64,000 nucleotides of DNA from Thermodesulfovibrionales bacterium. Its GTDB lineage: Bacteria; Nitrospirota; Thermodesulfovibrionia; Thermodesulfovibrionales; Dissulfurispiraceae. This document shows positions 318 to 45,461 of this stretch, piece by piece. The translations under genes and the position numbers were made by a program. The notes under the pieces were generated by a model. It saw only the letters and a program-made list of their open reading frames with translations, was not told the DNA's origin and ran no database searches. Within the stretch, counting starts at the first letter, position 1. Each line of letters begins with the position of its first letter. The DNA is taken from the NCBI GenBank assembly GCA_026415415.1, contig JAOAHE010000002.1, positions 1 through 64,000 on the forward strand. Direction: 5' to 3'.

Positions 318-2054
318 ATGGATAAAATTTTACGGATTGATATAGGCGCTGAAGGAGGACCAAAGGTAACTATTACTGGTCTTGGCGAGTATGCGGGCTT
401 TGGTGGTAGAGGTATGACCTCTGCAATTGTATCGAAGGAGGTCCCTCCCTTATGCCATCCCCTCGGTCCTGAAAATAAGCTTGTAATAGCTCCGGGGTTA
501 TTAAGCGGCTCGGCATCGGCAATGTCAGGCAGGATATCGGTAGGATGTAAAAGCCCATTAACAGGAACTATCAAAGAATCTAATGCTGGCGGACAACCTG
601 CTCAGGTTCTTGCCAGATTGGGATATGCAGCAATTGTTTTAGAGGGGAAGCCCACGGATGATACTATTTATAAAGTTTACATTAATAAAGATGGGGTAAA
701 AATCTCCCCTGCTAATGAATTAAAGTTATTGCCCAATTATGATCTTGTTGCAAAGATGAAAGAGCAATATGGAGACAGAATTGCGTGTATCTCAATAGGT
801 CCAGTAGGGGAGATGAAGATGAACGTTGCCTCTGTAGCATGCACAGATATGGAAATACGTCCTACCCGCCATGCAGGCAGAGGTGGTGTTGGAGCCGTAA
901 TGGGAGCAAAAGGAGTGAAAGTCATTGTCTTAGACGACACCGGCATGCCCATGAGAACTCCAGCCAATTTGGAGAAGTTCAAAGATGCAAACAAGAGGTT
1001 TGTAGATGGTTTAATGAAACATCCTGTTACAGGTCAAGCCCTGCCAGCTTATGGAACAAATGTTTTAACTAACATCATAAGTGAGGCAGGAGGTTATCCT
1101 ACTTATAATTTCAAAGAAGGTAGCTTCGCCGGAGCATCAAAGATTAGTGGAGAAGTTGAGGCTGAACTGGAAAAACAGAGAGGAGGTAATCCCACCCATG
1201 GCTGCCATAGAGGTTGTGTAATCAGATGCTCGGGCATCTTCCATGACAAAGACGGTCATTATCTCACTAAACAACCTGAGTACGAAACTGTCTGGGCACA
1301 TGGAGGCAACTGCGGCATAGATGACATAGATAAGATAGCTATGATTGACTATTTAGATGACAACTACGGTATTGACACTATTGAGATGGGTGCGACAATA
1401 GCCCTTGCAATGGAAGCGGGGCTTGCTAAGTTTGGTGATGCAGATGCAGCTATTAACTTAGTAAAAGAAGTAGGTAAAGGCACTTATTTGGGACGCATTC
1501 TTGGTGCAGGAGCTGAGATCACAGGGAAAGTTTTTGGACTTGAAAAAGTTCCTGTGGTGAAAGGGCAGGCTTTACCAGCCTATGATCCAAGAGCTGTTAA
1601 AGGTATTGGTGTTACCTATGCCACATCAACAATGGGGGCAGATCATACCGCTGGTTATGCTGTAGCTACAAACATCTTAAAAGTTGGTGGGTTTGTAGAT
1701 CCTCTTAAACCAGAAGGTCAAATAGAGCTTTCCAGAAACCTCCAGATAGCTACCGCTGCCATAGACTCCACAGGTATGTGTATATTTATCGCCTTTGCCT
1801 TACTGGATCAGCCTGAAACCTTCCAAGCATTACTCGATTTACTAAATGCCTTCTATGGATGGGATCTAACTGCAGAAGGTGTTATGGATTATGGCAAAAA
1901 GATTTTAACGATGGAAAGGGATTTCAATTTAAGAGCAGGCTTTACAAAGGAACACGACAGACTACCCAGATTCTTCTATAGAGATAAACTCCCACCTCAT
2001 CAAGTAACTTTTGATATAAAAGATGAAGACTTAGACAAAGTCTTTAATTGGTAA
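318..2054 (+). CDS. Tungstopterin aldehyde:ferredoxin oxidoreductase family protein
   Basis: This family oxidises aldehydes (or related acyl substrates) to acids in the cytoplasm, passing electrons through a [4Fe-4S] cluster to ferredoxin. The 578 residues are close to the usual family length. The N-terminal domain is seen at about 4-205, with a Gly-rich pterin-contact stretch at 185-203. Cluster cysteines are C296, C300 and C304, plus a distal C488. The spacing is Cx3Cx3C, not the Cx2Cx3C of classical archaeal AOR, so this is a divergent clade and the substrate is unknown. The second pterin loop is at about 423-446. AAGGAGG at 305-311 sits 6 nt before the ATG, which fixes the start. MoaD-like and ThiF-like genes follow, as expected for tungsten-cofactor maturation. 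Confidence 0.9.
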   Translation: MDKILRIDIGAEGGPKVTITGLGEYAGFGGRGMTSAIVSKEVPPLCHPLGPENKLVIAPGLLSGSASAMSGRISVGCKSPLTGTIKESNAGGQPAQVLARLGYAAIVLEGKPTDDTIYKVYINKDGVKISPANELKLLPNYDLVAKMKEQYGDRIACISIGPVGEMKMNVASVACTDMEIRPTRHAGRGGVGAVMGAKGVKVIVLDDTGMPMRTPANLEKFKDANKRFVDGLMKHPVTGQALPAYGTNVLTNIISEAGGYPTYNFKEGSFAGASKISGEVEAELEKQRGGNPTHGCHRGCVIRCSGIFHDKDGHYLTKQPEYETVWAHGGNCGIDDIDKIAMIDYLDDNYGIDTIEMGATIALAMEAGLAKFGDADAAINLVKEVGKGTYLGRILGAGAEITGKVFGLEKVPVVKGQALPAYDPRAVKGIGVTYATSTMGADHTAGYAVATNILKVGGFVDPLKPEGQIELSRNLQIATAAIDSTGMCIFIAFALLDQPETFQALLDLLNAFYGWDLTAEGVMDYGKKILTMERDFNLRAGFTKEHDRLPRFFYRDKLPPHQVTFDIKDEDLDKVFNW

Positions 2055-2061
2055 AAGTAAA

Positions 2062-2094
2062 ACAAGCCTTGATTTTTAGTCAAGGCTTGTTTTT
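2062..2094 (+). terminator. Hairpin terminator/attenuator between aor and moaD-like gene
   Basis: An 11-bp perfect stem (ACAAGCCTTGA 2062-2072, TCAAGGCTTGT 2080-2090) with a 7-nt loop is followed by TTTT. It lies 8 nt after the aor stop and 20 nt before the next start. It probably lets only part of the transcription reach the maturation genes, since one catalytic enzyme is needed in excess over its accessory proteins. Confidence 0.75.
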
Positions 2095-2114
2095 ATAAGA
2101 CGACTATAGAGATC

Positions 2115-2339
2115 ATGAAAGTTACCATAAAACTCTTTGCTATTTTGAGAAGAGATAGATTTGATACTCGGGTCTTCCAGTTTGAGGAAGATACAACAAT
2201 CTATGATATTTTAGATAGATTAAATATCCACACTGAGGATGCAGCTATAGTGTTTGTTAATGGGAAACATGCTGAGCTTGAGCAAAAATTATTGGATGGT
2301 GATGTAGTTAGCATATTCCCACCTATAGGTGGTGGTTAA
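2115..2339 (+). CDS. MoaD/ThiS-family sulfur-carrier-like protein
   Basis: A 74-residue ubiquitin-fold protein ending in PPIGGG. The terminal Gly-Gly is the feature that ThiF/MoeB enzymes adenylate and that later carries a thiocarboxylate. The beta-grasp pattern is visible in the hydrophobic alternation of the first 15 residues and in the FVNGKHAEL and LLDGDVVSIFPP segments. It lies between a tungsten enzyme and a ThiF-like gene and overlaps the latter by 11 nt. The likely role is sulfur transfer during pterin-cofactor assembly or maturation for the aldehyde oxidoreductase. That role is inferred from context; a general MoaD function is also possible. Confidence 0.85.
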   Translation: MKVTIKLFAILRRDRFDTRVFQFEEDTTIYDILDRLNIHTEDAAIVFVNGKHAELEQKLLDGDVVSIFPPIGGG

Positions 2340-3174
2340 AATAAAGATGGATGCTCACAACATATTAGATTTCTTAAGGGAAAATGCTATTGACGGTGTG
2401 CTATCCCATAAAATTATTGAGTATGCAGTCAAGATTACAAAGCTATCCTTCCAAGAAATAGAGAGGATTTCCTTAACAAAGGGATTAATTCCTAAACGTT
2501 ATCTAAGAAATCAAAGAGTAATAAAACGAGTAGAACAATTAGCCCTTCTTAATTCTTGTGTTGCCATAGTTGGTTGTGGTGGTTTAGGTGGCTACACAAT
2601 AGAGATGCTTGCAAGGTTAGGGGTTGGACAGTTAATATGCATTGACCCTGATTATTTTCGTGAAGAAGATCTCAATCGTCAGCGGTTCTGTAATCTAAAT
2701 ACCTTAGGTCAGTTAAAAGCCGAGGTTATTAAAGAAGAGCTTAAAAATATAAATCCAGCAGTGGTAGTCAAAGCACATACCTCTTCCTTTTTACCCGAAA
2801 TAGGGGAGACTCTCTTAGCGGGAGCTCAAGTTGTAGTAGATGCCCTCGACTCCTTTGAAGCTCGAACGGACTTGGCGGAGACTTGTAGACGACTCTCTAT
2901 CCCTTTAGTTCACGGAGCTATAGCTGGGTGGTATGGGCAAGTTAGTGTGCAAGAGATAGAAAGCAATAAACTTATAGATCTCTTTAAATCCTCCTGTGGC
3001 AAGAGGGAATTACAAAGAGAACTCGGTAATCCGTCCTTTGCACCTCCCTTTATTTCAGCCATCCAAGTTGCTGAGACAATAAAGATTTTGCTGCAGAAAG
3101 ATAACAATTTGTTATTGAATAAATTATTTTTCTTTGATCTCTTAACTTTCTCCTTTGAGTTAGGACAATTATGA
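2329..3174 (+). CDS. ThiF/MoeB/HesA-family adenylyltransferase
   Basis: A 281-residue E1-like enzyme predicted to activate the C-terminal glycine of the preceding MoaD-like protein with ATP. The nucleotide-binding motif GCGGLGG lies at about residues 83-89. The IDPDYFREEDLNRQRF segment carries the Asp, Arg and Asn residues that contact ATP. The paired CxxC zinc ligands of MoeB are absent; only isolated cysteines are seen. The longest frame starts with GTG at 2329 inside the MoaD-like gene. An ATG at 2347 is an alternative and would remove the overlap. About 70 residues precede the core domain, as in longer ThiF-like members. The stop overlaps the next start as ATGA, so the two are translationally coupled. 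Confidence 0.87.
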   Translation: MVVKIKMDAHNILDFLRENAIDGVLSHKIIEYAVKITKLSFQEIERISLTKGLIPKRYLRNQRVIKRVEQLALLNSCVAIVGCGGLGGYTIEMLARLGVGQLICIDPDYFREEDLNRQRFCNLNTLGQLKAEVIKEELKNINPAVVVKAHTSSFLPEIGETLLAGAQVVVDALDSFEARTDLAETCRRLSIPLVHGAIAGWYGQVSVQEIESNKLIDLFKSSCGKRELQRELGNPSFAPPFISAIQVAETIKILLQKDNNLLLNKLFFFDLLTFSFELGQL

Positions 3175-3773
3175 TACAAGAACCTATCTTTATCCATATA
3201 GATGTTTTTAAGAATAGCTTTATGCTCTTTTCAGATATTTTTCAAACAGGAGTTTTTATAAAAACAAGCAATATTGGCAGTAACCTTTACATTTTCCTAA
3301 AAGACGACATAGGTCTAACTGATGAATATATAGAAAATAAAATAAAAATAGTTTTTCTTGATAATAAACCAGTAGATGATCTGCAATCTGAAATCATAAA
3401 AGAGTTTTCAAAGATTTCACTCTCAGCAGCCATGCCTGGACTTGTAGGTGCAATCCTTAGGCAAAATAGCCCTTTGTACTCTATGCGAGAAGGGATTTCT
3501 AAGAGAGCTTGTGCTTTCTGCTCTTTCAAAGAAGGATATATCATTTTAAAACTCTTTAATTTGCTTATAAATGATTTAGGACCAGCTCTTCTTAAGAAAG
3601 GCGTTGTTTTGGAAAAACAAACTACTGTAAAACTTTTAGCAAAATTTATCCAATTAAAAAACCTCAAAAACGCTATTATTAATGGGAAAGCAATGAAAGA
3701 GAAAGAGCTTTTAAGAATAATAGAAGATATTTCTGATGATTACCTTTGCTTATCAGTAACCTTATCTTCATAA
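3171..3773 (+). CDS. Uncharacterised protein coupled to the aldehyde oxidoreductase maturation genes
   Basis: I do not recognise a named family. The 200 residues have no signal peptide or clear membrane segment. The most motif-like region is around residues 85-123: SLSAAMPGLVGAILR, then a CAFC pair (Cx2C) near residue 121. The rest looks like an alpha/beta fold with a Lys-rich tail. The start is fixed by the ATGA overlap with the ThiF-like gene. Its position as the third accessory gene suggests a part in cofactor insertion or enzyme assembly. This is inference from context only. Confidence 0.75.
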   Translation: MIQEPIFIHIDVFKNSFMLFSDIFQTGVFIKTSNIGSNLYIFLKDDIGLTDEYIENKIKIVFLDNKPVDDLQSEIIKEFSKISLSAAMPGLVGAILRQNSPLYSMREGISKRACAFCSFKEGYIILKLFNLLINDLGPALLKKGVVLEKQTTVKLLAKFIQLKNLKNAIINGKAMKEKELLRIIEDISDDYLCLSVTLSS

Positions 3774-4192
3774 TTTTTATTTCTTCTGCTACCTCACATC
3801 AATTGTTGAAGTAATCCTTACTTAACAGACACTATATACATAATTACAAATGATTAATTTGGATTCACTATTGGATCTTAATAGATAAAAATCCATCTCG
3901 CTTTTTAAAATTTTGACCCACGTAATAGATTATATAATTCTCAGCCTCTAAATCTCACTAAAGCAAAAGCTGATCATGACAAAAAGAGTTAATAAAGCAA
4001 GATTTTAAGAGTTAGTATTTTCTTCAGCTATAAATTAACCTAAGCTTTACTTGATTATATTCATAACTAAGGTTTATATTATATACCTTTTCTTAAATTT
4101 TCTCTTGCCGATTATCTACTATTTAAGATAATTACAACTAAGAAAATAATAATTAAAATGTAATAAAAAAGCCTTCTTTTAATAAACATTAA
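3774..4192. other. Intergenic stretch without a recognisable gene
   Basis: About 420 bp of AT-rich sequence with stops in all frames. The only structure I see is an imperfect inverted repeat at 3804-3827 (TGTTGAAGTAA, TCC, TTACTTAACA, with one bulged G). It lies 30 nt after the preceding gene and could be a weak terminator or an operator. No tRNA is apparent. Confidence 0.5.
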
Positions 4193-4216
4193 GGGGTCAC
4201 AGTTGATAATGACCCC
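4193..4216 (-). terminator. Terminator hairpin of the small minus-strand gene
   Basis: GGGGTCA (4193-4199) pairs with TGACCCC (4210-4216) around a 10-nt loop. It lies 28 nt beyond the stop of the minus-strand ORF at 4245. On the minus strand it is followed by a T-rich stretch (TTAATGTTTATT). Confidence 0.6.
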
Positions 4217-4244
4217 TCTTTAATAAAACTAAACTTCAAAAATA

Positions 4245-4424
4245 TTATTCCATATTAAAATAAGCAATTTCCTTAATGCCAGGTATATACTCCCCAACTG
4301 GAACTAATTTTTTATCTTCCTTAATACAACTTACAACCTTTTTCCAGAGCATATCAAGCTCGCCCTTTTCTCTGTCATTTTCAGGGATCATTTTGATAAG
4401 AGTGCCTTCAAACTCTATCTTCAT
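4245..4424 (-). CDS. Small 59-residue protein of unknown function
   Basis: A short minus-strand ORF reading MKIEFEGTLIKMIPEND at its start and ending EIAYFNME. It has a strong ribosome-binding site (AAAAGGAGGG, 8 nt before the ATG on the minus strand) and its own downstream hairpin, so I regard it as real although it is small. It is soluble, slightly acidic, has one Trp and one Cys, and contains a KLVPVGEYIPG segment that looks like a conserved core. I cannot assign a family. It is not clearly in an operon: its nearest neighbour, the TetR gene, is divergent. Confidence 0.7.
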   Translation of the reverse strand: MKIEFEGTLIKMIPENDREKGELDMLWKKVVSCIKEDKKLVPVGEYIPGIKEIAYFNME

Positions 4425-4632
4425 ATCGTGCCCTCCTTTTATAAATTTATTTTTAAATATTTTACTCCATTTCCCACAAAGACTGCAATTTTAAAACATT
4501 TTTAACTTTGTAGTCCTTAGCCTAATGATCTAAAGTATGAAAAACATAAATAGCTATTTAAAGATGAAAATTTTTATTCTACTCAAAAAAACGCCTTCCT
4601 TCTTTTTCAATAAATGAATCCTATAAAAAATA

Positions 4633-4677
4633 TTGACTTTTTTAAAAAAATATTTTATGTTAGTAAGCACTTACTTA
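4633..4677 (+). promoter_or_regulatory. Promoter with overlapping TetR-type operator for the efflux operon
   Basis: A -35 box TTGACT (4633-4638) and a -10 box TATGTT (4656-4661) are separated by 17 bp. Overlapping and just after the -10 is an 18-bp near-palindrome (4660-4677), with perfect arms AGTAAG (4662-4667) and CTTACT (4670-4675) around CA. This resembles AcrR/TetR operators. It ends 17 nt before the tetR start, which implies autorepression of the whole operon. The rest of 4425-4632 shows nothing else. Confidence 0.8.
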
Positions 4678-4693
4678 TTTTAAGGTATGGTTT

Positions 4694-5287
4694 ATGACAT
4701 TACAATCTCTATCTACAAAGGATAAAATCCTTGAAAGCGCCATTAAACTTTTTTCACAAAAAGGGTATTTAGGTGCCTCTACTCGACAGATAGCAAAAGA
4801 GGCTGGAGTAGCAGAAATTACTTTATTTAGACACTTTTCAACTAAAGAGAAATTACTTGAAGAGGTACTAAATAAATACTCATTTTTACCCCATCTAAGG
4901 ACCATTCTACCTGAAGTCTTAAATTTAGAATATGAAGATGCCCTGTTTTTAATTGTTAAAAACTTTTTAAACTCTCTTTTTTTAAGAAAAGACCTTATAA
5001 AAATAATGAAAGCGGAGATATTTACTCATCCTGATAAAGTTGCCAAACATCTTCAAGTATTCATAGATGAGCTATATGATACTATAGCCTTATATTTTCA
5101 AGAAATGCAGACAAGAGGAATTCTAAGGGATTTTGATACACGACTTGCTGGTAGAGCTTTATTAGGAATGGTGTTCACTTACTTTGAAGTAGAAGAATAT
5201 ATATTTCAAAAACAAAATACCATTGAAGATTACGAAGAGGCTATAAAAGAGTTTGTAAAAATATTTGTAAAGGGGACAGTTAAATGA
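4694..5287 (+). CDS. TetR/AcrR-family transcriptional regulator
   Basis: A 197-residue dimeric repressor with an N-terminal TetR helix-turn-helix at about residues 8-55 (recognition region STRQIAKEAGVAEITLFRHF at 29-48). A divergent helical ligand-binding domain follows. It is the first gene of an RND efflux operon and lies directly behind a palindromic operator, so it most likely represses its own operon and is released by a pump substrate. Its stop overlaps the start of the tolC-like gene (ATGA). AAGG at 4682-4685 serves as a modest ribosome-binding site. The ligand is unknown. Confidence 0.93.
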   Translation: MTLQSLSTKDKILESAIKLFSQKGYLGASTRQIAKEAGVAEITLFRHFSTKEKLLEEVLNKYSFLPHLRTILPEVLNLEYEDALFLIVKNFLNSLFLRKDLIKIMKAEIFTHPDKVAKHLQVFIDELYDTIALYFQEMQTRGILRDFDTRLAGRALLGMVFTYFEVEEYIFQKQNTIEDYEEAIKEFVKIFVKGTVK

Positions 5288-6627
5288 GCTTTATGAACTT
5301 TATATTCTGTCTAAGGTTTTTAGTATTTTTTCTTATTTCAATTATCACTTTGTCTACAGTGTCCTTAGCCCGTGCTTCAGTAGAATATAGCCTTGATGAA
5401 CTTTATAGCATTGCTCTGCAAAACTCAGAGAAGATCAAGATTACAGAAGAAGAACTTGTTATCTCAGAATTAATCAAAGATAAAGCTCTATCAGCTTTGA
5501 TGCCAAAAATTTCTGCCTTTGGTGGTTATACAAAATTCAATAAAGAGAACATTTCTTCTGCTGGGACGGTTATCCAACCTAATGAGTCCCTATTATGGGG
5601 AATAAGGGTTGATCAGACCTTTTCTCTAAGCGGGCGAGAAATTACAGCTCTCAATATCTCATCAAAAGGGATAGAAAAAAGCAAATATGACCTTCACTCA
5701 ACTAAGGAATCATATCTCCTTACTGTAGCTCTTGCATATTATGATTTATTAAAAGCACAAAAACTCTTAGATATTGCTCAGTCTAACGTAGATAGACTTA
5801 CAAAACATAGAGATGCTGCTTTGACCCGACTTAAGATAGGTGAGGTCACAAAAACAGCACTTTTAAGGGCTGAAGCTGAGCTTTCTGGTGCCATTTCAGA
5901 TAAAATAAAGGCAGAAAACAAACTTAAACTTGCAAAGTCTGTACTTGCTACAGTAGTTGGGATAAAAGAAGAATTTACTGTAAGAGAGTCAAACCAAGAA
6001 AATGGAAATTATATTGATCAAATACTCAAGAATTGTTCACTGCCTATCCAATGTTTTACAGAAAAAGCCTTTGCCAGTAGGGCAGAGTTAAGATCTTTAG
6101 AATTACAGAAAAAGATCTCTGAAGAGCAGATAAAATATGCAAAAGGAGCCTATTTACCAACCATATCTATTGAAGGAGTTTGGCTAAAGAAAGAGGAAGA
6201 TCCACCATCTATATCCCTTATCAAAGAAAACATTTATGGTGCTATCAAGTTAAACTTTCCTTTCTTTGAAGGCGGATTAAGAAGGGCGGAGGTAAAAGAA
6301 GCAGAGTCACGGAAAAAACAGACGGAATTTTTATATGAAGATACAAAAAAAAGCATAACCTTAGAGATCGAAAGTGCTTTTCTTGATTATATTACCTTGC
6401 AAGGTATTCTAAAATCCCTCAAAGACCAAGTAGCATTCGCAAAAGATAATTTTAACTCCATTAGTAAACAGTTTCAGTTCGGGTTAGCAAATAGTATTGA
6501 TGTAATGGATGCAAATACACTTCTTATCACAGCAGAGAGACAACTTTTAGATGTAACTTATAGTTTTGAGGCATCAAAAATTAAGCTATTAAAAGCTTTA
6601 GGTGTCTTATACAATAAAAAGCATTAA
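5284..6627 (+). CDS. TolC-family outer-membrane efflux channel
   Basis: A 447-residue outer-membrane factor that would form the trimeric exit duct of the tripartite pump encoded downstream. An N-terminal signal peptide ends around ARA (about residue 30). Two OEP repeats follow, with the long amphipathic coiled-coil helices typical of TolC (for example about 130-220 and 350-440). Its ATG overlaps the tetR stop, so it is translationally coupled to the regulator. A second, unrelated TolC-like gene lies at 62078-63430 in an Mla cluster. Confidence 0.92.
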   Translation: MSFMNFIFCLRFLVFFLISIITLSTVSLARASVEYSLDELYSIALQNSEKIKITEEELVISELIKDKALSALMPKISAFGGYTKFNKENISSAGTVIQPNESLLWGIRVDQTFSLSGREITALNISSKGIEKSKYDLHSTKESYLLTVALAYYDLLKAQKLLDIAQSNVDRLTKHRDAALTRLKIGEVTKTALLRAEAELSGAISDKIKAENKLKLAKSVLATVVGIKEEFTVRESNQENGNYIDQILKNCSLPIQCFTEKAFASRAELRSLELQKKISEEQIKYAKGAYLPTISIEGVWLKKEEDPPSISLIKENIYGAIKLNFPFFEGGLRRAEVKEAESRKKQTEFLYEDTKKSITLEIESAFLDYITLQGILKSLKDQVAFAKDNFNSISKQFQFGLANSIDVMDANTLLITAERQLLDVTYSFEASKIKLLKALGVLYNKKH

Positions 6628-6680
6628 TCATTAAAACTTTAATTTGAATGTACTGAGTTCATTAGCTCTTTTGTTTTAAA

Positions 6681-6708
6681 CTTCTTAAAAATAAGAAGAG
6701 TTTTATTT
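6681..6708 (+). terminator. Intra-operon hairpin after the tolC-like gene
   Basis: CTTCTTA (6681-6687) pairs with TAAGAAG (6692-6698) around AAAA, followed by AGTTTTATTT. It sits in the 151-nt gap between the channel and adaptor genes. It may act as a partial terminator or as an mRNA-end stabiliser within the operon. Confidence 0.5.
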
Positions 6709-6778
6709 AGGTAAAAAAAAATATAAAGGCGATTCTATATTTATTAGATAAAAAAAATGATTTACAGGGGAACTTAAA

Positions 6779-7912
6779 ATGATTAAAAAATGCACTCAAC
6801 TATTATATTTTCTCTTTTTCATAACCTTCTTTATAACTTTTATCACTGCCTGTAGCAGCAAAGAAAAAAAGGCTATAGAAGAAAAAATAATAAATGTGAA
6901 AGCCCAGTCAGCAGAAAAAAGAATAGTTCAACCATATATCGAAACAACTGGTTCTCTAATTCCCTACGAGGAGGTTATAGTTAGTGCCGAGATTGATGGA
7001 ATTATAAAAGAAATAAAAGTAGAGGAAGGCTCCCCTGTCTCAAAAGGCACTCTTATAGCTACTATTAACGAGACCGATTATGATTTAGATGTTAAAAGAA
7101 ATGAAGCAGTTTTAAGACAAGCTCAAGCAACCCTTGAGAATGTAAAACTGGAATTTCAAAGAAAGAGTGCGCTATATAAAGAACAACTTATAACACAACA
7201 GCAGTTTGACGATGTTACTACAAGACTTGCCCTTGCTGAAGCAGAGTTAGAAAGAGCAAAATCTACCCTTTTTCTTTCAAAACAAAAACTTATCAAAACA
7301 AAAATATATAGCCCCATTGATGGCTTTATTAAAGAAAAAAAAGTATCAGCTGGAAATTATGCCAGAAATGGTTCAAATTTGTTTGTAATAATAAAAAACA
7401 ATCCAATTAAACTCACCTTTACAGTAAGCGAAAAAGATATCGGCAAACTTAAAAAAGGACAAGAGATAACTTTTCGTGTTGATGCATATCGAGACAAAGA
7501 CTTTAAAGGAAAAGTAAATATAATCTATCCTAACCTTGATGAAAAAACACGAAGCCTACAAGTTGAGGCATTAAGCCCAAATCTTGATGGTTTATTAAAA
7601 CCAGGACTTTTTGCAAAAATTACCCTTTTTACAGACGAACCTAAGGAAGCTATACTCATCCCTGCTATCTCTTTACTTTATGAAGCAGAAAATATTAGAG
7701 CCTTCATAATAGAAGGCGATGTAGCCAAGCGGAGAAATCTAAAGATCGGACAAAAATACAAGTTTTCTCAAAAAACTGACGATAAAGAATCAAGAACTAT
7801 TGAGTATGTCGAAGTTATAGAGGGAATCAAGGAGGCAGAAATAGTTGTTACAGCTGGACAGCAAAATCTATCAGAAAATACTAAAGTCAAAATCGTTGAT
7901 TCACGTCAATAG
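6779..7912 (+). CDS. RND efflux periplasmic adaptor (membrane fusion protein), lipoprotein
   Basis: A 377-residue HlyD/AcrA-type adaptor linking the inner-membrane pump to the outer-membrane channel. The N-terminus is a lipoprotein signal with lipobox ITAC, placing the lipidated cysteine at C25. The order is a biotinyl-lipoyl-like half motif (about 60-100), a short alpha hairpin (about 100-165), the second lipoyl half (SPIDGFIKEKKVSAG, near 178-192), a beta-barrel domain and the membrane-proximal domain. The spacing to the pump gene is 16 nt. CAGGGG shortly before the ATG is the ribosome-binding site. Confidence 0.93.
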   Translation: MIKKCTQLLYFLFFITFFITFITACSSKEKKAIEEKIINVKAQSAEKRIVQPYIETTGSLIPYEEVIVSAEIDGIIKEIKVEEGSPVSKGTLIATINETDYDLDVKRNEAVLRQAQATLENVKLEFQRKSALYKEQLITQQQFDDVTTRLALAEAELERAKSTLFLSKQKLIKTKIYSPIDGFIKEKKVSAGNYARNGSNLFVIIKNNPIKLTFTVSEKDIGKLKKGQEITFRVDAYRDKDFKGKVNIIYPNLDEKTRSLQVEALSPNLDGLLKPGLFAKITLFTDEPKEAILIPAISLLYEAENIRAFIIEGDVAKRRNLKIGQKYKFSQKTDDKESRTIEYVEVIEGIKEAEIVVTAGQQNLSENTKVKIVDSRQ

Positions 7913-7928
7913 ATAAGAGGAACAATTT

Positions 7929-10900
7929 ATGTGGCTTGCTGATACTTCAATAAAAAGACCCGTCTTTGCTACTATGCTCATCCTTGCTCTTGTTGTTTTA
8001 GGAGTTGTAAGTTATCCAAGCATCGGCGTAGATCTCTTTCCAAGGGTTGAATTCCCAATTGTAAATATCAAAACTGTTTTAAAGGGTGCAAACCCTGAGA
8101 TAATGGACATAGATGTAACTGACAAGATAGAAGAAGCTATTAGCACAATAAACGGCGTAAAGACAATAAACTCATCAAGTACTGAAGGGGTATCCATTGT
8201 TACCGTAGAGTTCTTTCTGGAAAGAGATATAGATCTTGCTGTACAAGATGTCAGAGAAAAAATTGCCGCTATTAGAAGTAAACTACCTACAGATATTGAA
8301 GAGCCCATTATAGAAAAAGTAGATCCAGATGCCACACCAGTCCTATGGTTAGCTTTAAGTGGTGAACAATCCCAAAGAGAACTTTCTACTTATGCTGATG
8401 AAGTCTTAAAAGAACAACTTCAAAAGATAAACGGCGTAGGTGCGATAAGATTAGTAGGTCAAAGACTTAGACAAATTAGGATCTGGTTAGACCTTGAGAG
8501 ATTAAACTCCTATAAAATTACAGCACAAGATATAATTAGAGCCATTCAGAGAGAAAATATAGAGATACCGGGCGGAAGAATTGAAAGTGACTCAAGAGAA
8601 TTCATAATAAAAATTAAAGGTGAAGTAACAACTGTTAATGACTTTAACGAGTTAATATTAGGCTACCACAAGGGTTCAGCTATTAAAATAAAACATATTG
8701 GGAAGGCAGAGGATGGTGTTGAAGAAAAAAGAACTATAGCAAGGTTTAATGGCATGCCTGCTGTCGGATTAGGTATACAAAAACAATCAGGAACTAATAC
8801 TGTAGAAGTCATAGACCGCGTTAAAAAAGAGATGGAGAAGATCAAGAAAACTTTACCACCAGGCATGAAATTAGACATAAGCTTTGACCAATCACTTTTT
8901 ATAAAAAGATCAATCCATGAGGTGCAGACTCATTTGATTTATGGAGGCTTTTTTGCAGTTCTTGCTGTGCTCGTTTTTCTTAAGAGCTTAAAAGTTACTC
9001 TCATTAGTGCACTTGCTATCCCTACATCTATTATAGCTACCTTTAGCATAATGCACGCCTTTGGGTTTACTTTCAATAATATGACAATGCTTGGACTTTC
9101 TCTTTGCATAGGAATCTTAATAGATGACGCTATAATAGTAATAGAAAATATCCATAGACATATAAAAAATGGTATGAAACCTATGGAAGCAGCGTCTTTT
9201 GCAGCCTCTGAGATAGGACTTGCTGTAATGGCTACAACCTTCGCGATAGTAGCTATATTTTTACCTGTAGCTTTTATGAAAGGCATCGTAGGTAGGTTTT
9301 TCCTCCAGTTTGCCCTTACAGTAGTATTTGCTGTATTGGTTTCATTACTTGTGTCTTTTACCCTTACTCCTATGCTTTCTTCAAGATTTCTTAGCTCAGA
9401 AGATGAAAAAGTTGGCAAAAAACATTATAAAATTAAAGCACTTGGCGATATATCAGAGGGACTTGATAGGTTATATGCTAAAACTGAGGAATTGTATAGA
9501 AAACTACTTGTATTTTCCTTAGAACATAAAGCTAAAGTTATACTTATCGCAACAGCTATATTTATCTTCAGTCTTTTAATCACAAAGTTTATAGGAAAAG
9601 AGTTTCTCCCGCCAGAAGATCAAGGAAGATTTATAGTTAGGCTTCAAGCACCTGTTAATTACTCTATTGATGAAGCTGACAGGATGTTTCGTCAAGCAGA
9701 AGATATAATAAGAACCCTTCCCGAAGTCAAAACAGTATTTTATGCTCAGGGGTCAGGATTGACTGCCGAGATTAACAAAGCATCAATGTTTGTAGGTCTA
9801 AAACCTAAGGCAGAGAGAAAAAAGAAACAACAAGAAATCATGAAAGAGGTAAGAAAAAGACTTAAAGGTATAGTTGGCTTAAAAGCAACAGCTGAAGATG
9901 TCTCGTTAGTAGGAGGTGGCATAAGACAAGTACCTATTCAGTTTAGCATACAAGGCAGAGATCTCTCAGCCCTTGAAGAATACTCAAAAATGATAATATC
10001 AGAGTTTTCAAAATTACCAGGAATAGTTGATGTTGATTCAACCTTAGAAGCAGGTAAACCTGAAATTAAAGTCTTCATTAACAGAGATAAAGCCGCTGAG
10101 TTAGGGATTGATATAGCTACTGTAGCCGAATCAATCAATTTTCTTATAAGTGGTGAAGTAGATGTAGCAAAGTTCAAGGATGACTCTAAGGGCAGGAGGT
10201 ATGATGTAAGAGCGAGGCTTTATCCTGAAGATAGATCAAAGCCAGAAGATTTAGCAAAGATTTATGTTAGATCAAAAGACGGAAGACTGATTGAGCTGTC
10301 AAATATTATAAGTATCCAAGAGGGAGGTGGCTCAAGTATAATAAACCGCGTTGACAGACAAAGAGCTATTGTACTTTTTGCTAATTTAGAAGGGAAACCT
10401 CTTGGTCAAGCAAAAGATGAGCTAAACTTTATAGCAGCAAAGATACTACCTGCTGGTTTTTCTACCTCTTATAAGGGTATGGCAGATATAATGGATGAGT
10501 CTTTCTATTATCTTCTTTTTGCTCTTATATTAGGTGTTGTAGTAGCCTATATGATTCTTGCCTCCCAGTTTGAGAGCTTCATTCATCCAATCACCATTCT
10601 TGTCTCAATGCCTCTTTCTTTTATCGGTGCTTTCGGAGCTTTGCTTATTACAGGCAACACCATAAATATATTTAGTCTTATAGGGCTTATTCTTTTAATG
10701 GGTCTTGTAAAGAAAAACGCTATATTGCTTGTTGACTATACTAATACCCTTAGACAAAGAGGAATGGATAGAAAAGAAGCTATTATTACAGCAGGACCAA
10801 TCAGGTTAAAACCTATACTAATGACTACTTTTGCTATGATTTTTGGTATGGTGCCTATAGCTTTAGGTATAGGGGAAGGGTCTGAGACAAGAGCACCAAT

Positions 10901-34849: not shown

Positions 34850-35968
34850 ATGGAGACAATAGAAAAATTAAAGATTTTGTCTCAAGACTCCCAGTATGAC
34901 CTTGCCTGTGCTTGTGGAACCACTAAAGAAGACCGTCGCAGAAGAGGTCTTGATGGCAAATGGCTTTATCCTGTTACACTTCCCCAAGGTGGTTATTCTA
35001 TATTACTGAAGACCTTACTCTCTAATCACTGTCTGAGTGACTGTAAATACTGCCCTCTTAGAGCAGAAAACAATATTATCAGGTGCTCCCTCCAGCCTGA
35101 AGAGTTAGCAAAAATATTCATAGAATATGTAATAAAAAATAAAGTCGCAGGCATCTTTTTAAGCTCTGGCGTTATAGGAAGTGCAGACAATACAATGGAT
35201 AAAATTAATTCCACCGCAAAGATAATAAGAGAAAAATATAAGTATAAAGGCTATATACATTTAAAAATTATCCCAGGTGCCAGTGATGCTGCAATAGAGG
35301 AGTCACTTTCCTTAGCCAATACAGTATCTTTAAACATAGAAACCCCTGGGCAAAATAGACTTAAGAAACTAAGCTTAAATAAAAATTACTTAAACGATAT
35401 AATTAGACCATTAAAACTAATATCTAAGCTTATAGAAGAAAAATTTGCTCATAAAAAAGTTAAGTGTACAACTCAGTTCATAGTTGGAGCATCAGATGAA
35501 ACAGACTCTGAGATCATCAACTACACCTTTAATTTATATAATAAATTAAGGTTACAAAGAGTCTATTTTTCAGCTTACCAAAAAGGTTTAGGTGACTCAT
35601 CAATACCAGCAGAACAAAAAGACATTAACCCTCATGCTTTACTTAATCGGGAACATCGTTTATATCAAGTAGACTTTCTTATTCGCAAGTATAATTTTAA
35701 GTTTCAAGATATAATATTTGAAAGTAATGGTAATTTATCACTTGATAAAGATCCAAAGTTAACATGGGCTGAACAACATCCTGAATTTTTTCCTGTTAAC
35801 ATCAACAAAGCTGATAAATGGACTCTTTTAAGAATACCAGGCATAGGACCAAAAACAGCTGAGTTAATCCTCAAAAATAGACGATATAGAAACTTTTCAT
35901 GTTACGAAGAGTTAGGATTAAATAGAAACAATACTGAAAAAATAAAGAAATTTGTGATATTTAGCTAA
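34850..35968 (+). CDS. Radical SAM protein of the putative DNA modification/repair family
   Basis: 372 residues. The radical-SAM cluster motif is C61-x3-C65-x2-C68 (CLSDCKYC). An early CACGTT segment (C20, C22) followed by KEDRRRRGLDGKW is typical of the TIGR03916-type family. That family is usually paired with a UDG-like partner and proposed to act on DNA. The C-terminus has a helix-hairpin-helix (NINKADKWTLLRIPGIGPKT), supporting nucleic-acid binding. The usual partner gene is not adjacent here. The start has no clear ribosome-binding site. Confidence 0.88.
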   Translation: METIEKLKILSQDSQYDLACACGTTKEDRRRRGLDGKWLYPVTLPQGGYSILLKTLLSNHCLSDCKYCPLRAENNIIRCSLQPEELAKIFIEYVIKNKVAGIFLSSGVIGSADNTMDKINSTAKIIREKYKYKGYIHLKIIPGASDAAIEESLSLANTVSLNIETPGQNRLKKLSLNKNYLNDIIRPLKLISKLIEEKFAHKKVKCTTQFIVGASDETDSEIINYTFNLYNKLRLQRVYFSAYQKGLGDSSIPAEQKDINPHALLNREHRLYQVDFLIRKYNFKFQDIIFESNGNLSLDKDPKLTWAEQHPEFFPVNINKADKWTLLRIPGIGPKTAELILKNRRYRNFSCYEELGLNRNNTEKIKKFVIFS

Positions 35969-36450: not shown

Positions 36451-38547
36451 ATGACAAAAAACGAATTAACTCTTCTAAATGAAAAAGCTTACTATGAAAG
36501 TATATGTGAGATCAAAGAAAAACGACCCTATCCTCCTTGTAGAGCTGCATGTCCCGTTCACACTGATATCCAAGCTTACATTGGTTTAATAGCTAAGGGT
36601 AAATATAACGAAGCTTTTGATGTAATAACCGCTCCAAACCCTCTTGCATCAGCATGCTCTATGATATGTCATCATCCTTGTGAACAAGCCTGTAGACGCT
36701 GTGCTATTGATGAACCTCTGGCTGTAAGAAATTTAAAAAGGTTTGCTATTGAACAATCACTTGAGTACAGAAAAACAAAAAGAAAACCTGTTACCAAAAC
36801 TATGAACAAAAGTATCGCTATCATAGGTGGTGGTCCTTCTGGATTAACAGCGGCTAATGATCTTGTCTCAGCTGGGTATAATGTTACAATTTATGAAAAA
36901 CATCCTGTATTAGGAGGTATGTTAGCATCCGCCATACCACCATATAGGCTTCCAAGAGAGTTATTAAAAGAGGACATAGAAGATGTTATTTCAAAAAGTG
37001 TAGAAGTAAAGACTAACTGTGAAGTAGGTAAAACAATTACCTTAAATGAGATAATCTCAAAACATGATGCAACATTAATAGCTATAGGGTTATCAGATAG
37101 TCGCTCATTAAACATTCCGGGCATCGAGGGAGAAGGGGTTTTATTAGCAATTCCTTTTTTAACAGAAATAGCATTTGGCGGTAAACCAAAAATAGGCAAT
37201 AATGTATTAGTAATCGGTGGTGGCAATGTTGCAGTAGATGTCGCTCGTTCAGCAAGAAGACTTGGCGTAAAAAATGTCTCTATGGTCTGTCTTGAAAGTG
37301 CAGAAGAGATGCCCGCATGGAAATGGGAAATTGACGAAGCCTTAGAAGAAGGAATAACGATATTTAACAGATTTGGACCAAAAGCTGTGAAAAGGAAAGA
37401 TGGTAAAGTTGAAGGACTTGAAGTTGTAAAAGTAAAATCTGTCTTTGATGAAATGGGAAGATTTAACCCTACCTTTTATGAGGATCAGTTATCTTCTATA
37501 GAAGCTGATACAATTATAATAACTATCGGACAGATGGCAAACCTATCTTTATTGAAAGATTCTCCTTTAAAAACTGATGAAAGAGGTAGGATTCAGTGGG
37601 ATCCAGATACCCAAATGACAAATGTAAAAGGAGTCTTTGTAGCTGGTGAAGTTGTAACTGGTCCTGGTTCCGCTATAGCTGCTGTAGCCAACGGACACAG
37701 ATCAGCCCTTGCTATCCACTTATATCTTAAAGGGGAAGAAATAAAGGGCAAACTACCAAGCCAAGAAAGAGAAAAACTACCTCCGTTACCTGTATGTGTA
37801 GTTGAGAAAATTGATCCTCAACCGCGTCAACAGATAAAACACTTACCTCCAGAGGTAAGATGTGACACCTTTACGCACTTTGAGATAGGGTATGATGAAG
37901 AGCATGCTTTAAAAGAAGCTTCAAGATGCCGTGGCTGTGGTGGTGGTGCTTATGTAAATATTAATCGTTGTATGGGATGCCTAACTTGCCAAAGACTTTG
38001 TCCGTACGGTGCTCCAGTGGTATCTTCTTACTCTTTTATAAGACCTGAATACTGTCAAGCCTGTGGATTATGCGCGCCTGCCTGCCCTGGTCGAGCTATT
38101 AAAATGTTAAGCTATGATATCTACGAGTTTCAAAAGTTTATGCCTCAGTTAGCAAAACAGATCAATAAAAACAGAAAAGAGCCTTTCGTGATAGGCTTCC
38201 TCTGTACACATCATGTAGGAGTAATCGGATTTGATCTTCCAGAGAATATCTTCAAAATACCACTACACTGTATAAGCCGTATTGATACCCTTGATATTTT
38301 AAGTGCCTTTGAAAATGGTGCTGATGGTGTTTTAGTTCTTCACTGTGAAGATGGCACTTGCAAATATAAAGGCATAAAAGAAAGGGTAATATTAAGAATC
38401 CAAAACGCATGCAAGATGTTAGAAAGTCTTAAAATTGACAAAGGCAGACTCACAATGTTAACAATGAAAACTACCGAAGATGAACATTACAAAAAAGCCT
38501 GCTTGAACTTTTTATCTCAAATAAAAGAATTAGGCTTAAGACTATAG
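36451..38547 (+). CDS. NAD(P)-dependent flavoprotein fused to ferredoxin and MvhD-type domains
   Basis: A 698-residue redox hub. The N-terminal GltD-type cysteine region spans about C30-C84 (CRAACPVHTD, CSMICHHPCEQACRRC). The FAD Rossmann fold has GGGPSG at 126-131, and a second nucleotide site at about 251-265 has VIGGGNVAVDVARSARR. Two [4Fe-4S] motifs lie at about 493-550 (CMGCLTCQRLCP and CQACGLCAPACP). The last 125 residues resemble MvhD/FlpD, with Cys at GFLCTHH, LHCIS, and HCEDGTCKYKG. MvhD passes electrons to heterodisulfide reductase-type complexes, so this enzyme probably links NAD(P)H to low-potential carriers. AGGAG precedes the start. No Hdr genes are adjacent. Confidence 0.85.
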   Translation: MTKNELTLLNEKAYYESICEIKEKRPYPPCRAACPVHTDIQAYIGLIAKGKYNEAFDVITAPNPLASACSMICHHPCEQACRRCAIDEPLAVRNLKRFAIEQSLEYRKTKRKPVTKTMNKSIAIIGGGPSGLTAANDLVSAGYNVTIYEKHPVLGGMLASAIPPYRLPRELLKEDIEDVISKSVEVKTNCEVGKTITLNEIISKHDATLIAIGLSDSRSLNIPGIEGEGVLLAIPFLTEIAFGGKPKIGNNVLVIGGGNVAVDVARSARRLGVKNVSMVCLESAEEMPAWKWEIDEALEEGITIFNRFGPKAVKRKDGKVEGLEVVKVKSVFDEMGRFNPTFYEDQLSSIEADTIIITIGQMANLSLLKDSPLKTDERGRIQWDPDTQMTNVKGVFVAGEVVTGPGSAIAAVANGHRSALAIHLYLKGEEIKGKLPSQEREKLPPLPVCVVEKIDPQPRQQIKHLPPEVRCDTFTHFEIGYDEEHALKEASRCRGCGGGAYVNINRCMGCLTCQRLCPYGAPVVSSYSFIRPEYCQACGLCAPACPGRAIKMLSYDIYEFQKFMPQLAKQINKNRKEPFVIGFLCTHHVGVIGFDLPENIFKIPLHCISRIDTLDILSAFENGADGVLVLHCEDGTCKYKGIKERVILRIQNACKMLESLKIDKGRLTMLTMKTTEDEHYKKACLNFLSQIKELGLRL

Positions 38548-39498: not shown

Positions 39499-40866
39499 AT
39501 GAATATAACCACTAATTTCAGAAAAATATTAAAAATATTGTTTAAATATGATGATGAGGCACGATTAAATCTTTTTGAACTGTTCCCTTCTTTAAAACGA
39601 TTCTTTCTAAACAGAAAAAATCTCCTTTATGTAAGGTCTTTCGGAGACATTATCTTTACTCTCCTTATAATCTTTGGCATATTTGGGCCACAAGAGGCTG
39701 ACAAAAATATAGTGCTTTTTATCTCGTGGGGAGTATGGTGGACAAGTATTGTATTAAGTTGGTTTTTTGCTGGAAGGCTTTGGTGTGGCTTTTGCCCTTT
39801 CCCTGGTGTAGGAAGAATATTCCAACACTTAGGACTAACTCTTAATCTTGATATACCTCCCTTCTTAAGAAGATATTGTCCATACATATCGGTAGTGCTT
39901 TTAGCTATCATAATTTACATAGAAGCAGTTACTGATATGAAAAACTGGCCAGCAGGAACAGGTTACTTACTGCTTAGCATCCTACTTGGAGCAACCATTT
40001 CAGGTATCCTATTCAAAGGGCAAGCGTGGTGTAGACATATGTGTCCTATGGGAAAGATAATAGGTTCAGCATCTACTCTCTCTATTTCCGAATTTAGACC
40101 TGATAGAACAATTTGTAAAAGTTGTAAATCCTTTTCCTGTAAAAAAGGCAAAGACGGCATCCCCGGTTGCCCAGTCTATCTTGGTGCATATAATGTAAGA
40201 AATAATCTTGATTGCTTAGTGTGTGGTAGATGTATAGGTCTATGTGAGTCAAATTCTCCAAGAATTAACTTACGAAATCCCTTTGTTGAGTTAATTATCA
40301 ATAAAGGACGACATCTTACTTGTGCTTACATAATTCCTTTTTTAATGGGGTCTCAGATTGCACGCTTTATCCAACATCAAAACTACTACGGATTACTTCA
40401 GACTTTATTCTATGGCTCTAACCTTCTTACTTTTTCTGTACTTCTTGCATCAGGCTTTTTTCTATTTATTCTAATAAGCCGAGTTGGATCAAAACTTTTT
40501 GGCCTAACAGAAGATGAGGTATTTGGACGCTTCTCACCAATGATTCCAGTTTTAGTGCCCCTTGCCTTTACTGGAGAGCTCGTCTACAGGCTTGAGTATT
40601 TTCTTTCCCATTTAGGAGATTTTCTTCCAACCCTTGGCAGACAGTTTGGGTTTTCTTTTGACCATCTTACTTTCTTGATAGATGAAAACATAATTCATTT
40701 AATATGCATTGCCATTCTTTGTATAGGAGGATTCGCTGGAAGCTATGTCATCTATCTATTCAATAAAGGAGACTTTCAGGGTATAATAAAAAAGACAAAT
40801 TACATTATATTGCATCTGCTCATATTCTCCATTTTAGCCGCTTATATAATTACCTTTTCATACTAA
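39499..40866 (+). CDS. Membrane-bound polyferredoxin (NapH/CcoG-like 4Fe-4S protein)
   Basis: 455 residues with about eight membrane helices flanking cysteine-rich loops. Two membrane-proximal motifs, CGFCPFPG (near residue 95) and CRHMCPMG (near 177), precede a loop with CKSCKSFSC and a later CPV, then CLVCGRCIGLC (about 238-248). The arrangement is that of NapH/NosR/CcoG-type quinol or membrane electron-transfer proteins. The long C-terminal part (about 275-455) with five or so helices is unusual. The electron acceptor is not encoded nearby. No Shine-Dalgarno is seen. Confidence 0.82.
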   Translation: MNITTNFRKILKILFKYDDEARLNLFELFPSLKRFFLNRKNLLYVRSFGDIIFTLLIIFGIFGPQEADKNIVLFISWGVWWTSIVLSWFFAGRLWCGFCPFPGVGRIFQHLGLTLNLDIPPFLRRYCPYISVVLLAIIIYIEAVTDMKNWPAGTGYLLLSILLGATISGILFKGQAWCRHMCPMGKIIGSASTLSISEFRPDRTICKSCKSFSCKKGKDGIPGCPVYLGAYNVRNNLDCLVCGRCIGLCESNSPRINLRNPFVELIINKGRHLTCAYIIPFLMGSQIARFIQHQNYYGLLQTLFYGSNLLTFSVLLASGFFLFILISRVGSKLFGLTEDEVFGRFSPMIPVLVPLAFTGELVYRLEYFLSHLGDFLPTLGRQFGFSFDHLTFLIDENIIHLICIAILCIGGFAGSYVIYLFNKGDFQGIIKKTNYIILHLLIFSILAAYIITFSY

Positions 40867-44798: not shown

Positions 44799-45461
44799 TT
44801 AAGCCGCTTTTTTAAGCTCAAACCCCAACGCCCTCTTAGGACATGAAATAACACAACTTGAGCATTTAATACAATCATTTTCAGAAACAACACCCGTCCC
44901 TTTATAAATATACGGCTTAAGTTGCATTGGACAAACCTTAGAACAAACTTTACAACTATTACAAGTATCATTAATAACCAATGGATATTTCCCACGAGAC
45001 AGTATATTACCAAAAGTTCCCATAGGACATATGTGACACCAGATTCGTTCTTGGTATATTAAACCAAGCACAACACCAACTGTTGTAGTAATGGTAAGAA
45101 CCTTAACTAATGCTAAACCTATCGCTTCCAAATCTCCCCAATGGATATAAACTTGAAGACCTATTACGCTTAAGAGTAAACATATAACCAAAGCTCTAAT
45201 TAATGGTTTTTTAAAGAAAGTGGGGATCTCCTTTCTCTTACTAAATTTCTTTATAAATAGATCATAAAAACTCCCCCTCGGACACATCCAATCACACCAA
45301 GCTCTTCCTTTATATAGTGCTACACCTATAGCTCCCAACATACAACCAAGGAGCAAAAAACCTATAAGAGGGTAAAACCAACCACCTAAAATAACCAAGG
45401 GTAACCCAAGGAAAGTCAATGCTTGTAATTTATTCCTTCTTTTCTTAAAATTTACGATCAT
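44799..45461 (-). CDS. Membrane 4Fe-4S protein (NapH-like)
   Basis: 220 residues with about five membrane helices in the first 150. Membrane-loop motifs are CDWMCPRG and CHICPMG. Two consecutive ferredoxin motifs lie in the C-terminal part (CNSCKVCSKVCP and CIKCSSCVISCP). It probably moves electrons between the quinone pool or cytoplasmic ferredoxin and an unknown partner. It lies 1 nt after an ArsR-family gene, so its expression is presumably metal- or redox-controlled, which is unusual for this protein type. Confidence 0.85.
   Translation of the reverse strand: MIVNFKKRRNKLQALTFLGLPLVILGGWFYPLIGFLLLGCMLGAIGVALYKGRAWCDWMCPRGSFYDLFIKKFSKRKEIPTFFKKPLIRALVICLLLSVIGLQVYIHWGDLEAIGLALVKVLTITTTVGVVLGLIYQERIWCHICPMGTFGNILSRGKYPLVINDTCNSCKVCSKVCPMQLKPYIYKGTGVVSENDCIKCSSCVISCPKRALGFELKKAA

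Follow-up and report, generated by a model that had tools for sequence, protein, structure and literature searches.

Methylene-tetrahydrofolate (methylene-THF) reductases have been described as types I to IV (PMC8760232; this and the other papers cited here by PMC number are quoted from the parts of their text that were available). In Moorella thermoacetica, HdrA is reported to oxidise NADH (PMC8760232, PMC9430772), and in Sporomusa ovata MvhD and HdrA were connected to MetF, and HdrA to MetV, by pull-down (PMC9430772). HdrA proteins with an inserted GltD domain and HdrA proteins fused to MvhD are already known (PMC12054007), as is HdrL with MvhD (PMC2702500). The electron donor to MetVF-type reductases and the saving of energy at that step are an open question, both in acetogens and in autotrophic sulfate reducers. 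We analysed a stretch of 64,000 nucleotides (the window) from contig JAOAHE010000002.1 of a Thermodesulfovibrionales bacterium (assembly GCA_026415415.1), which encodes a GltD-type flavoprotein, a ferredoxin and an MvhD domain on a single chain. No report of such a protein, alone or beside metVF, was found in the open-licence PMC literature searched, which leaves most subscription papers outside, nor in the available text of PMC5736913, PMC6085437, PMC9012536, PMC7325909 and PMC7117923. The fusion represents a conserved arrangement, probably for one-chain electron input to MetVF, that is undescribed in the literature searched.

The fusion is encoded on the forward strand by an open reading frame of 698 amino acids (36451..38547, with the ATG at 36451 and the stop codon ending at 38547), which is supported by homologues. 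Pfam detected, on the same strand, the Fer4_20 domain, an N-terminal Fe-S domain of DPD and GltD (36532..36765, residues 28-105, 2e-16), a GltD-type FAD and NAD(P)H module (Pyr_redox_2; 36811..37695, residues 121-415, 4.9e-34), two stretches of Fer4, with a dicluster model spanning residues 500-552, and an FlpD/MvhD domain (PF02662; 38215..38535, residues 589-695, 4e-21). The FlpD/MvhD match reached 75.7 bits (cut-off 22.3), was also recovered in a scan of the source genome, and lay above the cut-off in nine of nine homologues scanned. The C-terminal 137 residues alone match solved MvhD subunits in a PDB sequence search (best match 5odc_D, E 1.5e-11), so that the MvhD identification made in an earlier note on this DNA is not refuted. 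The order of domains that it had read on one chain is confirmed by Pfam, by the invariant ligands and by the homologues, and the Pfam domain set upholds its reading of the protein as a putative NAD(P)H to Fe-S transfer chain.

Six Cys of the N-terminal domain (30, 34, 69, 73, 77 and 81), ten of the ferredoxin part (residues 493-545; 37927..38085, forward strand) and four of the MvhD part (585, 607, 632 and 637, Cys585 lying just ahead of the Pfam domain) are invariant in 17 of 17 aligned sequences. All 6, 10 and 4 are likewise invariant in 30 of 30 sequences of the lineage to which the window copy belongs (lineage 1, see below). The ten Cys of the ferredoxin part make up two ferredoxin-type [4Fe-4S] motifs and a preceding CxxC, and the four of the MvhD part would be enough for one predicted [2Fe-2S] cluster; the second Cys of the CxxC found in neighbouring MvhD proteins is a His in the fusion. 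Homologues are 49-74% identical to the fusion in lineage 1 and 35-37% in lineage 2, the whole architecture being common to both. This shared architecture, together with the invariant cluster Cys, indicates that the fusion is not a product of chance.

An extra FAD site, which the earlier note had raised, was not borne out: Pfam gave a single FAD/NAD(P) module of the two-Rossmann kind, without a further FAD domain, and no RnfC-like domain. Nor was an HdrA-type FAD core seen, as the two listed HdrA models align best from residue 500 onward, with scores of 117.5 of 1100 and 66.1 of 1300. The C-terminus of the HdrA2 NCBIfam model (572-772 of 777) aligns with residues 500-695 of the fusion, and with residues 496-690 of a homologue, far under cut-off in both cases. 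In its back half the fusion therefore resembles the end of an HdrA-MvhD protein that carries ferredoxin and MvhD; its front half is GltD-like. The GltD-type models TIGR01316 (275.8 of 471.75) and TIGR01318 (215.4 of 482.95) remained below their cut-offs, as did the best NCBIfam model, NF009410 'NAD(P)-binding protein' (462.1 of 516). In an AlphaFold model, built from the window sequence and sequences from related loci only, pLDDT exceeds 90 over most of the GltD module and falls below 50 for most residues from about residue 498 on. A fold search covering the GltD part alone gave subunits of the bifurcating transhydrogenases NfnABC, StnABC and NfnI as the nearest solved folds.

No Hdr gene adjoins the fusion in the window, as the earlier note had stated. 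Other open reading frames of the window encode an aldehyde ferredoxin oxidoreductase-like protein (318-2051; best NCBIfam match partial, 83 of 868), a radical SAM protein of the rSAM_link_UDG type (34850-35968; 311.7 bits against a cut-off of 343.5) and two proteins with Fer4_5 motifs (39499-40866, NapH-like below cut-off, and 44799-45461), which may possibly be membrane electron carriers.

Fusion homologues were collected from 150 relatives and from 395 genomes drawn evenly from the phylum. Sixty-nine of the 395 genomes match at 1e-150, and 41 contain one match running from model position 20 or lower to at least 622, a few of these with an internal stop; two more carry fusion pieces, either split over two contigs (G077) or at a contig edge (G096). 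The fusion of G390 (L263) is split by an in-frame TAG into pieces of 575 and 103 amino acids. Several families of the order carry the fusion, as do a family of another order of the same class (f19) and one outside the class (f25). A pattern scan with two generic GltD motifs gave named GltD relatives and no close fusion homologue among the matches listed.

The sequences fall into two groups, lineage 1, which includes the window copy, and lineage 2, which comprises 11 loci mostly from one family (f11). The two stand apart in a tree of GltD parts (103 rows, quick search), where lineage 1 clusters (support 96) with four of the six HdrA/GltD proteins, that of Moorella included, and with a NuoF/GltD protein. 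An AU test on 35 hand-picked rows, the groups having been named after the tree was seen, rejected a common ancestry for the GltD parts of the two lineages (p 0.00015). On these trees the GltD-ferredoxin-MvhD architecture has arisen at least twice.

The genes around the fusion were compared in 46 loci from 45 genomes, the window included, with linkage counted by tblastn. In three loci a contig edge follows the fusion at once or after no more than 273 bases, which leaves 43 with downstream sequence. In 41 of these 43, metV lies downstream on the same strand, at 300 bp or less in 36 and up to about 3 kb in the others, and it is followed by metF in all 41. The two exceptions are the source genome (G000) and a congener (G001). 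Two genomes excluded from this count, G096 with its fusion piece at a contig edge and G088 with a GltD match only, also have a MetV match downstream. FolD is encoded within about 500 bp upstream of the fusion in 24 of the 46 loci. At one locus (L056), Pfam identified a CbiA/ParA-type gene, which we read as CooC-like, 5-FTHF cyclo-ligase, GTP cyclohydrolase I (FolE), FolD, MetV (PF12225), MetF (PF02219), T2SSF and Fhs; gene names at the other loci rest on similarity to this set. No HdrB match was obtained by tblastn at any of the 46 loci, and an HdrA-like gene was found at L060, upstream and beyond a second metVF copy. Two metVF copies per locus, separated by two short open reading frames and one of about 349 amino acids, are present at L060, L062, L065, L068 and L110, the upstream copy grouping with the other MetVF type.

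For comparison we used 40 stretches with metV or metF and their surroundings, all from genomes of this order in which the fusion is absent at that place. HdrA and/or MvhD were present in 11, several of which also carry HdrC and HdrB; two have an HdrA/GltD protein with HdrC, HdrB and MvhD, two a separate MvhD-like open reading frame only, and 24 none of these modules by tblastn, the remaining one being without MetV. In two stretches (L132, 8510-8743, reverse strand; L118, 3735-3977, forward strand) an MvhD-like open reading frame of about 150 amino acids directly precedes metV; matches to HdrA, HdrB and the GltD fusion are absent from both, which makes this a further metVF arrangement. These modules agree with type II (MetVF) and type IV (HdrCBA-MvhD-MetVF) as published, and within this one taxonomic order the place beside metVF is either empty (type II) or occupied by HdrCBA-MvhD (type IV) or by the fusion. 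Type IV MvhD genes (L112, L119, L123, L129 and the start of L116, where HdrA accompanies such an MvhD) have an in-frame TGA, probably a selenocysteine codon, at a conserved Cys in the motif VF(V/A)AG-U-LxGQCHY; the fusion has Cys632. Other combinations were also encountered. The record of Moorella stamsii reads HdrC-HdrB-HdrA/GltD-MvhD-MetV-MetF, and locus L155 of Deltaproteobacteria bacterium Tobar14m-G14 (679-5573) encodes a NuoE-like protein, a NuoF/GltD fusion of 1065 amino acids, MetV and MetF (Nuo names given by eye), the NuoF/GltD protein being a candidate for a further NADH-type input module for MetVF.

In a tree of MetV and MetF (85 rows), lineage-1 loci join the HdrCBA-MvhD loci of the order and lineage-2 loci join loci without a module. 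The tree omits L118, L126, L134 (partial) and L130. Within a clade of 42 rows (30 fusion, 12 Hdr; careful search; L132 falls outside it) the Hdr/fusion label needs four changes on the unrooted tree, in which L056 and L074 have long branches. Over 200 bootstrap trees the number of changes is 3-4 and supported branches force three, against a mean of 10.7 for shuffled labels, of which 0 of 500 sets were as low. A fusion genome (G023) and an Hdr genome (G013) under one genus code join at 100/99, and in both a T2SSF-type gene follows metF. The label has thus switched at least three times on the MetVF tree, once within one genus. The connection to heterodisulfide reductase drawn in the earlier note therefore stands in an indirect sense, the fusion occupying the place of HdrCBA-MvhD beside MetVF, but no Hdr gene lies next to the fusion itself.

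In the source genome the situation is different. Pfam profile searches found neither MetV nor MetF in G000 or G001, and the MetF and MetV sequences of a linked relative (G035) gave no match in either genome when used as queries. The same profiles matched 130 of 150 relatives (PF12225) and 203 of 230 genomes of the class (PF02219). The two genomes are 92.6% and about 80% complete, and one locus would be missing from both by chance in about 1.5% of cases, a figure that takes the gaps of the two to be independent and may therefore not hold. MetV and MetF are likewise absent from certain further genomes of the family, G004 being an example. Fhs, FchA, FolD and the fusion are kept in both genomes. 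One contig of G000 (C51) carries CooC-like, cyclo-ligase-like, FolE-like, FchA and FolD genes in one run, FchA and FolD being identified by Pfam. The gene that follows this run lies on the opposite strand, with about 10 kb of contig still to come, so that the operon has no fusion-metV-metF tail at this place. Since the window copy nests among metVF-linked copies, the linkage has probably been lost.

The source genome also encodes CODH/ACS and CdhD/E, and an AcsE-like protein that scores below the NCBIfam cut-offs (258 of 370; 237 of 259). Its aprA and aprB genes exceed the NCBIfam cut-offs and adjoin genes for two HdrA-like proteins, which we take for QmoA and QmoB, with a QmoC-like and a partial Sat-like open reading frame (both by eye), so that a sulfur-respiring life is likely. 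The only other FlpD match of G000 is the QmoB-like protein of this cluster. A GltD protein of 688 amino acids (C42, L069) was considered as a second fusion and rejected, because it combines a NuoG N-terminus with GltD and stands in a row with NuoE- and NuoF-like open reading frames (5200-9409 for all three; by eye). CCG-domain proteins are encoded on C85, C21, C37 and C41 (92.6 kb); those on C85 accompany a LUD domain (lactate type), and the C21 protein is similar to GlcF/GlpC/LdhH, with every score under its cut-off. FlpD has diverged further in the window's genus than in operonic members (mean identity 0.46 against 0.63), which could mean a changed partner. The genus accounts for 9.6% of the tree length for FlpD, 6.9% for GltD and 11.8% for the N-terminal domain (branch lengths on a fixed tree). 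The idea of a relaxed constraint on FlpD in this genus was dropped, since the excess in branch length is small and some metVF-linked copies are more diverged.

The likely electron donor was approached through the NAD(P) site. The five best PDB alignments (9n5u, 9bov, 8oh5, 4ylf and 5jca, from Nfn and Stn transhydrogenases) show YRR after the second Rossmann motif, and the two Arg of this motif presumably bind the 2'-phosphate. At the same position the window protein has CLE (residues 280-282; 37288..37296, forward strand), as do 32 other lineage-1 rows, two further rows being cut ahead of the site, and the HdrA/GltD protein beside metVF in Moorella stamsii. All six lineage-2 rows aligned have YRR. 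We read CLE as a probable preference for NADH and YRR as one for NADPH, although two YRR structures, 9bov and 9n5v, are described as NAD-bound. In the available text on Sporomusa ovata, crude extract showed no methylene-THF-dependent NADH oxidation (PMC9430772), so that even for type IV the case for NADH as the donor is not closed. The YRR of the six lineage-2 rows and their association with another MetVF type suggest, moreover, that donor use is not uniform.

We propose, with a probability of about 75%, that the fusion family is the electron-input subunit of a MetVF-type methylene-THF reductase, in which it replaces HdrCBA-MvhD and carries electrons from NADH to MetVF. The assignment as an input subunit is based on the domains, the invariant ligands, the operon linkage and the in-place exchange with HdrCBA-MvhD on the MetVF tree; NADH as the donor, the order of electron flow and the formation of a complex are what we infer. 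NADH would reduce the GltD-type FAD, the ferredoxin-like [4Fe-4S] clusters would relay the electrons to the [2Fe-2S] cluster in the MvhD domain, and MetV would convey them on to the flavin of MetF, where methylene-THF would be reduced to methyl-THF in the methyl branch of the Wood-Ljungdahl pathway. The flow would be reversed if the pathway ran oxidatively. A single chain would thereby do the work of HdrC, HdrB, HdrA and MvhD, and in G000 and G001 its partner would be an unassembled metVF or another acceptor.

The proposal made in the earlier note, a stand-alone hub for NAD(P)H-driven bifurcation or transfer, taken here as one that would serve several partners and be dedicated to none, fits the window, where nothing related adjoins the fusion, and the genome, where MetV and MetF were not found by the searches above. 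It is nevertheless a poor candidate for the family, since 41 of 43 loci are tied to metV, the window copy nests inside that lineage, and the protein has one FAD/NAD(P) module only and lacks the HdrA-type FAD core; the proposal holds, in the literal sense, for the source genome and its congener only. We consider it very improbable that the protein is the small subunit of a glutamate synthase, or an NADPH:ferredoxin oxidoreductase whose tail is mere decoration: the core is of GltD type and NF009410 is its best NCBIfam model, but this model, TIGR01316 and TIGR01318 all stay below cut-off, the FlpD tail is conserved with its four invariant Cys, and the window has no open reading frame of large-subunit size (the longest encodes 1027 amino acids). 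It is rather doubtful that the reductase bifurcates, the GltD FAD splitting the electrons of NADH, in an Nfn-like manner, between MetVF at the MvhD end and ferredoxin at the N-terminal clusters. The nearest solved folds are indeed those of bifurcating transhydrogenases, but the Fer4_20 match begins only at position 30 of the 113 of the profile. In GltD and DPD, an upstream CxxC serves the second N-terminal cluster. This CxxC is not visible in the fusion, and with the late start of the match it suggests that the ferredoxin outlet may be lacking. The drop in potential from NADH (-320 mV) to methylene-THF (-200 mV) could help pay for bifurcation (potentials from PMC9430772), and the Moorella complex has been proposed to bifurcate; no reduction of ferredoxin was seen with the type III enzyme, which has a single additional NADH module (PMC8760232, available text for both).

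The missing reductase of the source genome calls for an explanation of its own. One possibility, which we consider less likely than not, is that the genus has lost metVF and obtains methyl groups from acetyl-CoA via CODH/ACS and the corrinoid protein, the fusion being a relic or the donor to an unrelated acceptor. The negative searches in both genomes and the presence in G000 of CODH/ACS, CdhD/E and the AcsE-like protein (258 of 370) agree with this, and there is a precedent in Dehalococcoides mccartyi, which is described as lacking MetF and as deriving its methionine methyl group from acetate (PMC7857596, available text). However, the methyl-branch genes for Fhs, FchA and FolD are retained, and every cluster Cys and the CLE of the nucleotide site are preserved in the two genomes, which indicates that the fusion is not decaying. 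It is also conceivable, although we would not bet on it, that MetV and MetF are truly gone from the genus while the other genes just named remain, and that the fusion now supplies either a methylene-THF reductase of a non-MetF kind, as yet unrecognised, or some other acceptor in the place of MetVF. A genus with a donor and no visible reductase points to a missing enzyme or to pathway reduction. For the family as a whole, we retain the electron-input subunit of MetVF as the preferred reading. The exchange of one flavoprotein for HdrCBA-MvhD beside the same MetVF offers a small system in which the questions of NADH, ferredoxin and Hdr can be addressed, and the two independent lineages, with predicted preferences for NADH and NADPH, provide a built-in comparison.

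Several known systems share parts of the fusion. NfnAB, NfnABC, StnABC and GltD, the small subunit of GOGAT, have the same FAD and NAD(P) fold and include the nearest solved structures, but their alignment ends before the MvhD domain and they have YRR instead of CLE in the NAD(P) site. HdrA2, or type Ia HdrA (an HdrA-MvhD fusion), has a C-terminal ferredoxin and MvhD part that aligns with the fusion from about residue 500, whereas its FAD module is of HdrA type and that of the fusion of GltD type. In HdrL, or type III HdrA (HdrA with GltD), GltD is coupled to an MvhD partner as in the fusion, but the HdrA core is retained and MvhD is a separate gene. The type III reductase of Acetobacterium woodii (MetVF-RnfC2) likewise has one extra subunit as the entry of NADH to MetVF, although its module is RnfC-like and that of the fusion consists of GltD and MvhD. 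In the type IV reductase (HdrCBA-MvhD-MetVF; Moorella thermoacetica, Sporomusa ovata), MvhD links to MetVF as it would in the fusion family. The two share the operon place before metV, often after folD, MetV and MetF adjoining the fusion in 41 of 43 related loci and not in the window, and lineage 1 falls in the same MetVF clade. They differ in that HdrC, HdrB and the HdrA FAD core are replaced in the fusion by a GltD module, all on a single chain.
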